A DNA stretch of 64,000 nt from Methanosarcina acetivorans C2A (GTDB taxonomy: Archaea > Halobacteriota > Methanosarcinia > Methanosarcinales > Methanosarcinaceae), in NCBI RefSeq assembly GCF_000007345.1, contig NC_003552.1:682001-746000 (forward strand). Reading direction: 5' to 3'. Under the pieces are notes generated by a model. It made no database searches. It had not been told where the DNA came from and saw only the letters and a program-made list of their open reading frames with translations. Shown here piece by piece: positions 37,510 to 42,329 of the stretch (positions within the stretch are counted from its first letter, which is position 1; every line of letters begins with the position of its first letter). A program made the position numbers and the translations under genes.

Positions 37510-37581
37510 GCCGTCGTGGCTTAGTGGTATAGCGGCTGATTCGTAATCAGCAGGCCGAGGGTTCGAGTCCCTCCGGCGGCT
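37510..37581 (+). tRNA. tRNA-Thr (anticodon CGT)
   Basis: Acceptor stem GCCGTCG (37510-37516) pairs with CGGCGGC (37574-37580, one G-U), T37581 is the discriminator. Anticodon arm GCTGA/TTCGTAA/TCAGC gives CGU, reading ACG. T arm is GAGGG/TTCGAGT/CCCTC. No CCA is encoded. A T-run at 37586-37593 probably terminates it. A decayed copy of this tRNA with the same downstream flank lies at 41739-41827. Confidence 0.96.
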
Positions 37582-37647
37582 CTGTATCTTTTTTTGGTTC
37601 AAAGCCTGCTTCATCTAACGGCTTAAATAAATTATGTCCCCGACTAA

Positions 37648-37777
37648 GTGCCTATCCGAAAAGTCGGTAATGCGATCGAAAAGTTACAGCAGGTCTATAA
37701 TAGCAGGGCATCCTCTTCGGTTTTGCATATTGCTAATGGTAAGTTACCATAGGTCACAACACTTTTCGGATAGGCTC
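37648..37777. mobile_element. 130-bp MITE with IS5-like ends
   Basis: The ends are 17-bp inverted repeats, G(T/A)GCCTATCCGAAAAGT, differing at one base (37648-37664 and 37761-37777). They are flanked on both sides by TAA (37645-37647 and 37778-37780), a 3-bp TNA target duplication as made by IS5/IS1031-group transposases. There is no coding capacity. It is a non-autonomous element that would need a transposase elsewhere. It lies 66 bp beyond the tRNA-Thr gene. Confidence 0.85.
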
Positions 37778-38047
37778 TAATTATGTGAAACTATAAGTTT
37801 TTAGTAAAAAGATTGGACAGTAAGAATCGACCCGACAGGAACACATAATCCGATCCGATAGGAACAATACCAGTTAGGAATTGTCGGGTATGCAATCTGT
37901 TTTGTGTCTATATTTATCGGGCCGAATATCACGAAACAAATAGTATTTGTTTCTATCTGACTTTATTTGACTGTCAAAGTCAGGATAGAGCATCTGCTTT
38001 CTTTGTTTTGCATTCTCAATTCCTGAATTCTATTTGGTCATTATTGC

Positions 38048-38950
38048 TTAAGCTATTCCGTTTTTACGCTGGATTTCCAGTGCAATCACGCTGAAGTCTT
38101 TTTGCCCTTCACCATTCTGTACCGTTCTGGAGTATTCCTCAATGGACACCTTTGTCATCGGCAATATAGCCCCGGTTTTAGTTATCTGTTCATTTACAAG
38201 CCTCAGGTCTTTGGCTAAATTATTTAGTGAGAAAGCCGGTTCGAAATTGCCTTCTACGATCCTTGGTCCCTTGCCCTGGGAAATATAGTTCCTGATTGGA
38301 GTATTGTTAATAGTCTCAACGAAAGTTTTAGCATCGAACCCGAGCTTTTGCGAGAATACAAGCGCTTCAGAGAACGACTCTGCAAGAAGTCCCAGATGCA
38401 GGTTTATTGCCAGCTTCATTTTATGACCGTTGCCGTCTGCTCCTAAGTAAATTACACTTTTTCCCAGTTTGTTGAGAAATTTCTCATGCTTCCGGAGTAC
38501 TTCCTGGCTTCCCCCAACCAGAATTATAAGCTCTCCTTTTGAAGCCAGGTCCTTGCTTCCCACCACGGGAGTGTCAAGTCTTTCCAGTCCTGCCTTTTTT
38601 GCTGCTTCGGCATGTTTGACTGATGACGAAGGGTCTATTGTACTCAGGTCAATCCATAAACAACCCTTCTTCGCTCCATTGAGAAGTCCGTCTTCGCCAA
38701 AGGCTACACTGTTAACAGCGGCTTCATCAGTCAGTGACGTCATAATAATGTCTGCCACCGAAGCAAGTTCGCGTGGTGTGGAATGGAAAGTGGCCCCTCT
38801 TTCGATAAGTGGTTGAGCTTTTTCCTTAGTCCTGTTGTAGACGTGAACATTGTAACCTCGTGAGAGAAGATTGGAAGCAAAAGAACTCCCCATAATCCCT
38901 AAACCAATCACGCCAACAGTTATGTTTTTATCACAACCGGAAGTAGTCAA
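38048..38950 (-). CDS. Beta-hydroxyacid dehydrogenase family (3-hydroxyisobutyrate dehydrogenase-like)
   Basis: A 300-residue NAD(P)-dependent oxidoreductase. The N-terminal Rossmann motif is VGVIGLGIMGSSFASNLLSRG (about 12-32), followed by NRT (NADP preference) and DTPVVGSKDLASKGEL, the substrate-binding region. The catalytic lysine is in GHKMKLAIN (about 176-184). Members reduce or oxidise 3-hydroxyisobutyrate, tartronate semialdehyde, succinate semialdehyde or glyoxylate; substrate cannot be fixed. It lies within the tRNA-bracketed accessory segment, on the same strand as the MFS gene. Confidence 0.85.
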   Translation of the reverse strand: MTTSGCDKNITVGVIGLGIMGSSFASNLLSRGYNVHVYNRTKEKAQPLIERGATFHSTPRELASVADIIMTSLTDEAAVNSVAFGEDGLLNGAKKGCLWIDLSTIDPSSSVKHAEAAKKAGLERLDTPVVGSKDLASKGELIILVGGSQEVLRKHEKFLNKLGKSVIYLGADGNGHKMKLAINLHLGLLAESFSEALVFSQKLGFDAKTFVETINNTPIRNYISQGKGPRIVEGNFEPAFSLNNLAKDLRLVNEQITKTGAILPMTKVSIEEYSRTVQNGEGQKDFSVIALEIQRKNGIA

Positions 38951-39115
38951 TTGATCACCTCTTCTCTAATATACAATTTAAAAAGTGAATTTACTCTTTC
39001 ATAACAATCACATGAGAGCCCTGGATGCTTAGCCTGTTCTCCTACGATAAATCCTCGAATAAGGCCTGGCCTGCATACTGGTGAGGTCTCGAATTACGTC
39101 AATTACGAGCATACC

Positions 39116-39180
39116 CTCAACATCATTTCCCCCGCGTTAACAGATAGATTATAGACAGGGCTTTTAAATATTCTGCCCCC
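39116..39180 (-). promoter_or_regulatory. Shared upstream element, copy 1 (upstream of the dehydrogenase)
   Basis: This stretch is about 80 percent identical over 60 bp to 41427-41492. The best-kept parts are CGTTAACAGATAG and TTTAAATATT. On the minus strand the latter reads AATATTTAAA, a TATA-like box, followed by CTATCTGTTAACG, about 165-200 nt before the dehydrogenase start. Nothing else stands out in 38951-39263. Confidence 0.5.
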
Positions 39181-39263
39181 TGGTGAAGCGCACATCCAGC
39201 AAGTTTTATTAAATTTGCGAAGATCCGTGGCCTGGTGCAATTAAGCATATCCGGGTTCGCACC

Positions 39264-39543
39264 TTAACTATGTTCGAATTTAGCAGCCAAATCATTCTCA
39301 CAGTTGCCGTCTTTGAAGAGTAGTCCATATGGACAAAAGCACTGGAATGAGTAGATATCTTCAAGATCGTCCTCACTTATCTTCAGGATGCGTTCGTCAC
39401 AGCAACGGGTAAATTTGCAGCTCAGGGCTCCCCGGATTCGAAGGTAGTCGATTCCATTAAGTTGCCTGGCTTCGAATTATGCTGTGTTCACATAATTCTC
39501 TAAGTGTCCCGGCGTTTTCTCCGGTCTGTGCCAGTGCGATCAC
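39264..39543 (-). pseudogene. Frameshifted small cysteine-rich gene overlapping the MFS stop
   Basis: On the minus strand a GTG at 39543 overlaps the MFS stop (GTGTGA) and opens IALAQTGENAGTLRELCEHS before ending at TAA 39457-39459. In another frame, from 39476 to the stop at 39264, the sequence continues convincingly as LNGIDYLRIRGALSCKFTRC, then CDERILKISEDDLEDIYSFQ and CFCPYG. This second part has no start codon of its own. Joined, they make a protein of about 90 residues with seven or eight Cys, probably metal-binding. A single indel near 39460-39475 would explain the break. No family recognised. Confidence 0.5.
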
Positions 39544-41159
39544 ACCTGGTTTGCATGACGTTCTTCTTCCTCCTGTCTCTCGCGTGCCTCAGCAGCGACA
39601 AAATGCGTGACCTGGGGCGCACCTCTGGCGTGGTACCGGTTAACGGTGTCCTGAATGATGCGATCCGCATTTGTCACGCGGCCATGCTGTCTCAGGTGCT
39701 CCAGCCACGATTCCACCATGAATGTTTCCAGGAAACGCCCCTGATCGGCAACATCTTCGAACACGTACCAGGCGTAGGCGCCGTCACGACGCCGCTCATT
39801 AGACAGTCTTTTAAGAGCGTCAAGGAATGCTTCGCGGTTCCCGGGTTCAACACGATATTCGATGGTCACCAGCACCGGCCCCTGGTCATACTCGACCTTG
39901 TGGGTGAGGACTGGTGTGGGCCAGTGCATCGACGGCGTGAGATCGACTCCGGCACCCGTCTGCAGCTTCCAGCGCCAGGTAAATGGAATACTGATGAGAA
40001 CCCCTGCCGCGGCAAGAAAGTGGGCATCGGGCAGGCCGACCAGTCCGGCAATTTGTCCCCAGGCCGCACTGCCCAACGTCATGGCTCCGAAAAGAACAGT
40101 AACGAAAGTCGCAAGTCCGCGCCCTCGCACCCAGTCCGGCAGCGAGACCTGTGCGGAGATACTGAGGTTCGCGAGGACGGTGATCCAGGACATGCCGGCA
40201 ATGATGCTGGCCAGCAGGCCGACGGAGGGTTCTCGCGCCAGGCCAAAAAGCACGAGCGTGACAGCCGTGCCGACCGTTCCAGCTGCCACCAGCCGGTCAG
40301 GCCCCAGCCTTTCCTTGAGCCAGGGCAGGATGAACGCACCAATGACTGCACTGGCCCCGATCACGCCCAGCAGAAAGCCGTAAAGCTCCGGCCCACCGGC
40401 GATCTGGCTGCGAGCCACTAGCGGTAGCAGCGCCCAGTAGGCACTGGCAAACAGGATGAACCCGACCGTACGCATCAGGGTGGCGCGCAGATGTGAATTA
40501 TATCTTGCATGACGAACGCCGGTGATCATGGCAGAGACGAACCTTTCAGCCGGCAGCCGTTGAGCAACTGCTTTGCCTGGCCGCCACCACAGCAGAGCCA
40601 CGATAATTCCCAGATTACTGATAGCGTTGAGCCAGAAGGGGGAGGCAATCCCGATGCCGGCGATGATCAAACCTCCAACTGCCGGACCCACCGCGCGGCT
40701 TATATTTATTCCCATGCTGTCCGCCGCCACGGCCGGAGCCAGGACGTCCCTGGGAACAAGTTGGGGTACGATCGATCGCCAGGTCGGAGCGGTCAGCGCG
40801 GCGCCAGTTCCAAGTAAGAATGTGAACAGGAGCAGTATTGAGGGGGTAACAAGGTTGAAAGCGACGAGCATTGCGATTATCGTCGCTATGACTGTTGTTA
40901 CTGAGGTGACGATTACCAGAAACAGACGCCGGTCGACGATGTCGCTCAACGCGCCCGCAGGCATGGCAAAGAGAAACATCGGTAGGCTGGTTGCTACCTG
41001 AACCAGTGATACGATTAACGGGTCTGCGTTGAGACTCGTCATCATCCACCCCGAGCCCGCATTGTACATCCACGTGCCGATGTTCGAGATTACCGTTGCG
41101 GTCCAGAGAACCGTGTATGATGTATAACGGAACGGGGCCCATGAAGATTCTACTGGCAT
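39540..41159 (-). CDS. MFS_3-type exporter with C-terminal ABM-like domain
   Basis: A 539-residue protein. Residues about 1-410 form a 12-helix major facilitator of the EntS/MFS_3 class (FRYTSYTVLWTATVISNIGTW start; PTWRSIVPQLVP; GRGLATFVTV). Residues about 425-520 (GPVLVTIEYRVEPGNREAFL..., FVAAEARERQEEEERH) form a soluble ferredoxin-fold domain like antibiotic-biosynthesis monooxygenases. This fusion is common in bacteria. The gene is plainly richer in G+C than its neighbours and uses bacterial-looking codons, so it is likely transferred. It probably exports a small organic compound. It lies inside the tRNA-bracketed segment. Confidence 0.88.
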   Translation of the reverse strand: MPVESSWAPFRYTSYTVLWTATVISNIGTWMYNAGSGWMMTSLNADPLIVSLVQVATSLPMFLFAMPAGALSDIVDRRLFLVIVTSVTTVIATIIAMLVAFNLVTPSILLLFTFLLGTGAALTAPTWRSIVPQLVPRDVLAPAVAADSMGINISRAVGPAVGGLIIAGIGIASPFWLNAISNLGIIVALLWWRPGKAVAQRLPAERFVSAMITGVRHARYNSHLRATLMRTVGFILFASAYWALLPLVARSQIAGGPELYGFLLGVIGASAVIGAFILPWLKERLGPDRLVAAGTVGTAVTLVLFGLAREPSVGLLASIIAGMSWITVLANLSISAQVSLPDWVRGRGLATFVTVLFGAMTLGSAAWGQIAGLVGLPDAHFLAAAGVLISIPFTWRWKLQTGAGVDLTPSMHWPTPVLTHKVEYDQGPVLVTIEYRVEPGNREAFLDALKRLSNERRRDGAYAWYVFEDVADQGRFLETFMVESWLEHLRQHGRVTNADRIIQDTVNRYHARGAPQVTHFVAAEARERQEEEERHANQV

Positions 41160-41738
41160 TCGATTACCTCATTATCTCTGATCAGTTGCATCCGCCAGCT
41201 CCCGCATGAACCTGGTTATGAACGAAAAATTTCCCTTCGTCCCTCAGAATCAGGTTAAAATCCTTGTGTATGAACGCGAGCACAAAATATATGGGGCGCT
41301 AAAACTGTCTACATTTTTGGCACGCCTGCAGAGACAGCATTCCGCATGGTTTGCTCGGTTTCGCTTAGAGTCTCCAGATAGCTGGAATTTTGCAGCGGTA
41401 CCTTTTGCATTATGTCGATTCCGGACACCCCAAAACATTATTCCCCCACGTTAACAGATAGTATCATTGACGGGGCTTTAAATATTACGCCACTGAGACA
41501 GTACCAGACAGGTTTTAAGAAAGCTCCTCCTGCTAGAAGCGGATCATTTTCAGCTTATTGTTCTCAAACAGAATGGAGTTCGATGGATATCATGACGTTA
41601 TCAGCAAGTATCGGGCTGTGCAGTGCGATCTTACGATCGTGATAATTGTATGAGAACCTCTTGAGCATTTATTTCTGTCAGCATGTTTAACACAGCGTTC
41701 CCCAAAAGAGAAAGTAACTCGTGCAACCCGATTGCTGT
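41160..41738. other. Gene-poor right part of the accessory segment
   Basis: Short open frames (for example around 41206-41454) lack ribosome sites and protein-like composition. The stretch contains the second copy of the shared element (41427-41492) and otherwise looks like decayed sequence. Confidence 0.4.
41427..41492 (-). promoter_or_regulatory. Shared upstream element, copy 2 (upstream of the MFS gene)
   Basis: About 80 percent identical over 60 bp to 39116-39180, including CGTTAACAGATAG and TTTAAATATT. It lies 270-330 nt upstream of the MFS start on the strand that gene uses. It may be a common promoter or operator, or the relic of a duplicated leader. Confidence 0.5.
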
Positions 41739-41827
41739 GCCAGTCGAGAGTCTGTGAATTCATAATCAGCCGGCCGAGGGTTCGAATGCCTCCGGTGGCT
41801 TTCCACTTTTTGATTCAAAACCTGCTT
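41739..41827 (+). pseudogene. Decayed tRNA-Thr copy with matching downstream flank
   Basis: GCCGGCCGAGGGTTCGAA (T-arm region) and TCCGGTGGCT match the 3' half of tRNA-Thr at 37510-37581 with five mismatches in 37 bases. The match continues past the tRNA end (TTTTTGATTCAAAACCTGCTT versus TTTTTGGTTCAAAGCCTGCTT). The 5' part (GTGCCAGTCGAGAG...) keeps traces of the acceptor side but lacks about a dozen bases of the D arm. It cannot fold as a tRNA. It marks the right edge of a 4.2-kb accessory segment. Confidence 0.75.
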
Positions 41828-41867
41828 GCTGGAACTGTGAGGGGATAAAAGTCTTTTCTTAATATCC

Positions 41868-42329
41868 TTATTTTTTCAGAACTTCTATGATTTCCTTTAT
41901 GTCAGGAAGCTCGTGTCCCGGATATTTTTTGAAGAATATCACTTTCTGGTCTTCATCAATAATTATATTCGCCCTTTCGGAAACTCCTTCTTTTTCCTTG
42001 AATATCCCGTGTGTTCTGGCAACTTCTCCATGCGGCCAGAAATCCGAAAGCAACCTTATATGCATAATTCCGAGTTCTTTTGCCCAGGCTTTCTTTGATG
42101 GTGTGGAGTCCACACTTATACCAAAGGCTACCGTGTTCAGTTCGGTAAATAGTTCATGGTTTTCTTCAAGCGACTTCATCTGTTCCGCACAGACTTTTGT
42201 CCAGGCAAGCGGGTGGAAGGACAGGAGGACCTTCTTTCCTTTGAAGTCATAAAGATGCACTTCGTCCCTCTTCTGATCCCTTAAGCGAAAGTCCTGAATT
42301 GTTTCTCCGATTTTTATCTCGTTCGTCAT
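41868..42329 (-). CDS. Peroxiredoxin (AhpC/TSA family)
   Basis: A 153-residue thioredoxin-fold peroxidase. The peroxidatic cysteine is in SFHPLAWTKVCAEQM (about residue 47), where the common PxxxTxxC becomes PLAWTKVC. LYDFKGKKVLLSFHPL and FGISVDSTPSKKAWAKELG are family features. Only one cysteine is visible, so it may act as a 1-Cys enzyme or use a partner thiol. It would detoxify peroxides in this strict anaerobe. Monocistronic. Confidence 0.88.
   Translation of the reverse strand: MTNEIKIGETIQDFRLRDQKRDEVHLYDFKGKKVLLSFHPLAWTKVCAEQMKSLEENHELFTELNTVAFGISVDSTPSKKAWAKELGIMHIRLLSDFWPHGEVARTHGIFKEKEGVSERANIIIDEDQKVIFFKKYPGHELPDIKEIIEVLKK

Follow-up and report, generated by a model that had tools for sequence, protein, structure and literature searches.

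A decayed partial copy of tRNA-Thr(CGU) marks a probable integrase-less island in Methanosarcina acetivorans

Introduction

When an intact tRNA gene and a degenerate copy of that gene enclose a few kilobases of seemingly foreign DNA, is the arrangement the scar of an integrated element, or the result of a local duplication into which unrelated sequences later fell? The chromosome of Methanosarcina acetivorans C2A raises this question at a tRNA-Thr(CGU) gene, found here by both ARAGORN and Rfam (37510-37582), as an earlier reading of the sequence alone had it. We followed the locus in a window of 64,000 nucleotides, the whole stretch of DNA that was analysed (positions 682001-746000 of the 5,751,492-bp single-contig genome); all coordinates are those of the window unless a genome or locus handle precedes them. 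To the left of the locus lie genes for TFB, a LysE-type protein and Trm5, and to its right those for a peroxiredoxin (Prx), a cation-efflux (CDF) protein and further genes. The features of the locus are collected in Table 1.

Table 1. Features of the tRNA-Thr(CGU) locus in window coordinates
Feature	Position	Strand	Remarks
Intact tRNA-Thr(CGU)	37510..37582	+	ARAGORN; Rfam RF00005, 69.9 bits; left attachment-site copy formed by its 3′ part
Left repeat copy, attL core, 73 bp	37539..37611	+	Starts in the anticodon loop, ends 29 bp beyond the tRNA; ancestral flank gone downstream
MITE	37643..37783	.	TIRs of ~18 bp, 37647-37664 / 37761-37778, 94%
NAD-binding beta-hydroxyacid/3-hydroxyisobutyrate-type dehydrogenase	38048..38950	-	Pfam PF03446, PF14833
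Upstream element copy B	39093..39172	-	Ahead of the dehydrogenase; TATA-like ATATTTAAAAG
Broken cysteine-rich gene fragment	39267..39431	-	Open-frame paralogue, 53% identical, elsewhere in the genome
MFS exporter, MFS_3 family	39540..41159	-	PF05977, E 7.6e-171; intact 539-aa frame
Upstream element copy A	41409..41486	-	Ahead of the MFS gene
Right repeat copy, attR core, 70 bp	41758..41827	+	Decayed tRNA-Thr 3′ part and 26 bp of flank
Ancestral right-hand tRNA flank (CTGGAACTGTGAG...)	41828..41867	+	Common to relatives' intact tRNA-Thr loci; p 0.0005-0.005 against four relatives; empty-site alignment
AhpC/Prx peroxiredoxin	41868..42329	-	Right-hand neighbour kept at the empty sites of relatives

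Results

The second copy begins in the anticodon loop

The intact gene and its copy, which lie on either side of a block of ~4.1-4.2 kb, share a direct repeat (37539-37611 and 41758-41827) of 81% identity with three gap positions (E 9.6e-12), on which a repeat finder, blastn and local alignment agree. The repeat starts in the anticodon loop (ATTCGTAATCAGC on the left, ATTCATAATCAGC on the right) and ends with CCTGCTT, 29 bp (left) and 26 bp (right) beyond the 3′ end of the tRNA, close to the 25 bp or so of shared flank that the sequence-only reading had estimated. That reading had also placed a degenerate tRNA at 41739-41800; a copy is indeed present, but it covers only the part from the anticodon loop to the 3′ end, with its flank (41758-41827), and not the whole tRNA. 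The 5′ half of the tRNA is not recognisable in the 40 bp upstream of 41758 (p 0.85), and neither it nor the promoter is recognisable in the 80 bp upstream (p 0.13). Because this upstream sequence bears no likeness to a tRNA 5′ half, positions 41739-41757 are not tRNA.

These boundaries have consequences for how the repeat is classified. A tandem duplication of the tRNA gene should carry the 5′ half and promoter into the second copy, and in the window it does not; the idea that the partial copy belongs to a wider tandem duplication fails on this point. What we see is the layout of a tRNA-integrated island, in which an intact tRNA bounds one side and a direct repeat of part of it, the 3′ part, bounds the other.

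Relatives retain the empty site

The comparison that the sequence-only reading had called for yields an empty site in four other Methanosarcina genomes (G004, G008, G009 and G043), each with a single tRNA-Thr, a short flank and then Prx. The distance from the tRNA to the Prx stop codon at these sites is 57-123 bp, and in the window the same stop codon lies ~66 bp from the decayed copy; in another genome, G042, the CDF gene directly follows the tRNA. Downstream of the tRNA, relatives with a single tRNA-Thr such as G009 and G004 read ...GGTTCAAAGCCTACTTTCTGGAACTGTGAG... or nearly so. Beyond the right copy, the window sequence runs on as CCTGCTTGCTGGAACTGTGAG, which matches the flank of four relatives (p 0.0005-0.005) and is the empty-site flank of G009 and G004. 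The left copy runs on as CATCTAACGG, which is unrelated to the ancestral flank (p 0.57-1.0) and, by this test, is not a diverged form of it.

The two outer flanks of the repeat thus agree with those on either side of the tRNA-Thr locus in relatives and the two inner flanks match neither, and the copies therefore represent attL and attR around an insert. When the left and right flanks were joined in silico, the product aligned with G009 across the junction and into the Prx gene with a score of 294.5, versus 194.5 for the occupied sequence. An empty site in relatives, and ancestral outer flanks around foreign inner ones, are what a tRNA-integrated island should show, and both are found here. We also considered G003 as an occupied relative, in which 15.7 kb separate tRNA-Thr from Prx, but there the tRNA has kept its own flank and a second copy was not found, which makes it a different event.

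The enclosed block is a mosaic

All of the contents predicted from sequence alone are present: a MITE, a dehydrogenase gene, an MFS exporter gene, a broken cysteine-rich fragment and a duplicated upstream element. None of this cargo is a typical mobile-element gene. The MITE has 28 matches across the genome, of which many reach 96-99% identity, and so conforms to the usual picture of a MITE, with many near-identical non-coding copies bearing terminal inverted repeats. Its identity to other genomic copies reaches 99%, so the MITE inserted recently, as a later arrival that is independent of the segment.

The description of the block as foreign-looking holds for the MFS gene, with a G+C content of 0.588 and a GC3 of 0.654 against 0.458 for the window, but not for the dehydrogenase gene (0.449), which is ordinary for the window; the MFS gene is the only compositionally foreign gene in the segment. 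The closest relatives of the MFS protein that we found, in a non-exhaustive search with a few peptide patterns, are from Burkholderiales (71%), Rhodospirillales (68%), and gammaproteobacteria and Bradyrhizobium (65-66%), with one match of 66.5% on a Bradyrhizobium plasmid. The natural reading of these protein similarities is a bacterial donor. Within the genus the MFS gene occurs in none of the 30 other genomes searched, where the best matches are ~25% identical, and the stretch 41160-41757 is unmatched in the rest of the genus apart from the promoter-like element; among the genomes sampled, this one alone therefore has the MFS gene and the right part of the insert, and the segment is not one that all relatives share. 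The dehydrogenase gene is patchily distributed, with DNA that is ~80% identical in G017, G020 and G022, always at a different locus, and four further genomes retain truncated remains.

The two copies of the upstream element, each ~80 bp long, are 79% alike and contain an archaeal TATA-like ATATTTAAA. A relative of this element lies upstream of an unrelated membrane-protein gene in G003 (L074:1501-1567), which brings the unrelated genes preceded by it to three. The occurrence ahead of the unrelated G003 gene points to a promoter-type element, and we set aside the alternative that the repeat is a transposon end. Such an element may have offered the foreign MFS gene a route to an archaeal promoter.

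No integrase remains in the segment

Integrases from six relatives (G000, G003, G013, G019, G020 and G045) showed no similarity to 37583-41900, also when the search was repeated permissively, in line with the absence of an integrase noted from sequence alone. The segment has neither a tyrosine integrase gene beside the tRNA, as an intact element would, nor the int(N) and int(C) halves that SSV-type integration leaves at the two ends. Because no tyrosine integrase lies beside the tRNA, we regard the segment as a scar or remnant rather than an intact element. Across 20 genomes searched, no PF00589 match lies close downstream of tRNA-Thr(CGU); among matches that share a contig with the tRNA, the nearest (G011:C39) lies ~8 kb upstream of it. 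The tRNA-Thr 3′ half was not carried by any of the viral contigs, plasmids or phages searched, which gave only chance tRNA matches.

An integrase fragment does occur beside this tRNA in G013, where a broken tyrosine-integrase N terminus (L012:13066-13191, minus strand) lies ~215 bp downstream of tRNA-Thr(CGU) on the same strand. It is 45% identical over 42 aa (E 8e-5) to an intact integrase of the same family in G045, which starts ~70 bp after a tRNA-Ser(UGA) in the same layout. As a model for an att core, the G045 tRNA-Ser element offered only a candidate of ~15 bp located 25 kb away, which we did not use. The core that this element appears to use is short (~15 bp) and unlike the one in the window, so that no fixed att habit can be assumed for this integrase family.

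The same tRNA locus has been altered repeatedly in the genus

Extra tRNA-Thr copies occur downstream of the same tRNA in seven genomes (G013, G019, G015, G021, G002, G020 and G016) and, on other contigs, in G023. The second copy has a promoter in G002, G020, G016 and G023, as in a tandem gene duplication, and lacks one in G013, G019, G015 and G021. The G021 copy is a second scar, which starts at the same base as the copy in the window (ATTCG). The islands that follow tRNA-Thr in G015 and G021 (L016 and L018) are orthologous and 95% identical, and they differ exactly at the tRNA-derived scar, where G021 has ~190 extra bp beyond the copy that starts at the anticodon loop; this difference is a sign of further recombination there. 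In G019, two complete tRNA-Thr(CGU) copies enclose ~10.7 kb (L013:5556-16232) that form another cargo block at this locus, with frames that we named by eye from their translations as catalase, aldo/keto reductase, TetR-like and transposase-like.

Other copies have moved or changed. In G023, a complete tRNA-Thr body (L022:2654-2726) has the anticodon CAU instead of CGU and is labelled tRNA-Met by ARAGORN; it is preceded by GCAAAATCG, a short motif that extra tRNA-Thr copies in G019 and G013 also have in front of them, and may be a tRNA that was carried by an element and whose anticodon has changed. Away from the main locus, G023 (L031:8358-8449), G016 (L032:7880-7968) and G014 (L033:7227-7313) have degenerate tRNA-Thr-like copies whose 3′ flanks are similar, at a distance of ~230 kb in the last; these are possibly an old displaced duplicate. 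Within Methanosarcina, tRNA-Thr(CGU) stands out as a site of recurrent insertion.

Discussion

We conclude, with a probability of roughly 85%, that the segment is an old, mosaic, integrase-less island that arose by site-specific integration at tRNA-Thr(CGU) and has since lost its integrase and most of the element. The old, decayed island that the sequence-only reading had proposed at the tRNA 3′ end thus gains support from both the repeat geometry and the empty sites. In the sequence of events that we envisage, an element with its own copy of the tRNA-Thr 3′ part would have recombined into the chromosomal gene within the part from the anticodon loop to the 3′ end. The element would have supplied a working 3′ half, so that the tRNA on the left (attL) stayed intact, and the original 3′ half with its native flank would have been displaced to the right (attR), there to decay. 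Loss of the integrase and of most of the element would then have left the present remnant, a 4.1-kb mosaic of accessory genes joined by the later MITE. The lost enzyme was presumably a tyrosine recombinase, and the MFS and dehydrogenase genes probably arrived together with the scar-forming element rather than later.

For the repeat itself, the only serious rival is a short tandem duplication, in which slippage or unequal exchange doubled the 73-bp tRNA 3′ part and unrelated sequences later inserted between the copies. The genus does duplicate this very tRNA gene in tandem, as the promoter-bearing second copies of four genomes attest, and the MITE demonstrates that the interval accepts insertions. 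However, the copy in the window has neither the 5′ half nor the promoter of those duplicates, its edge falls in the anticodon loop, where integrases cut and where the G021 scar starts at the same base, and all 4.1 kb would have had to enter exactly between the copies; we therefore consider this origin unlikely. Far less credible still is that the resemblance is due to chance or convergence and that the right copy is what remains of a different tRNA, or of an element-borne one, unconnected with integration here. The decay of that copy to 81% and the displaced tRNA-Thr-like copies in G014, G016 and G023 could be read in this way, yet the repeat extends into the downstream flank of the tRNA and is followed by the ancestral flank of the locus, in the order seen in the empty-site relatives, and this comparison already contradicts the idea.

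Integration at the tRNA could also have happened more than once. Under a tentative refinement of the island reading, successive elements used the locus, and the present cargo came in after the decay of the first, by transposition or homologous recombination. The cargo is of mixed origins (a MITE with near-identical copies, a bacterial MFS gene of unameliorated G+C, a genus-like dehydrogenase and a decayed cysteine-rich fragment) and repeated events have affected the same locus elsewhere in the genus, both of which favour this view, but no second set of junctions other than that of the MITE is resolved inside the segment. A broader proposal appears doubtful to us, namely that throughout Methanosarcina tRNA-Thr(CGU) serves as a landing site at which integrases acting in trans repeatedly place small integrase-less islands through a fixed cut at the anticodon loop, giving bacterial genes a route into the chromosome.

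Integration followed by loss, as we read the segment, is a kind of event that is already known, and our understanding of integration is unchanged by it. The locus provides a base-resolved example of a proteobacterial-type exporter that sits beside a tRNA gene in a methanogen chromosome after the machinery of its arrival has vanished.

Several known systems resemble this locus in part. CIME-type islands in bacteria are integrase-less and flanked by att sites, and the segment is likewise att-flanked accessory DNA without a recombination module. Unlike those islands, it has a badly decayed right att copy, which makes its mobilisation in trans unlikely now.

The archaeal elements that integrate by tyrosine integrases, whether 'classical' as in pNOB8 or 'suicidal' as in SSV, target the tRNA 3′ part with a core that runs from the anticodon loop past the 3′ end, and they keep the tRNA intact and leave a partial copy at the far end, as is the case here (PMC8371274). 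In SSV1, strand exchange takes place at the anticodon loop, and archaeal att sites measure 40-60 bp, sometimes more than 100 bp, and reach outside the tRNA, a range that the 73-bp core fits (PMC8371274). In contrast to these elements, the segment contains no integrase gene, int(N) or int(C) halves, or replication or structural genes. A survey of atypical gene clusters next to tRNA genes that included the Methanosarcinales proposed many of them as former integrative elements (Cortez et al. 2009, PMC2718499). Like those clusters, the segment has genes of recent acquisition and odd composition next to a tRNA, and no annotated element; unlike them, it has both att copies and the empty sites resolved base by base.
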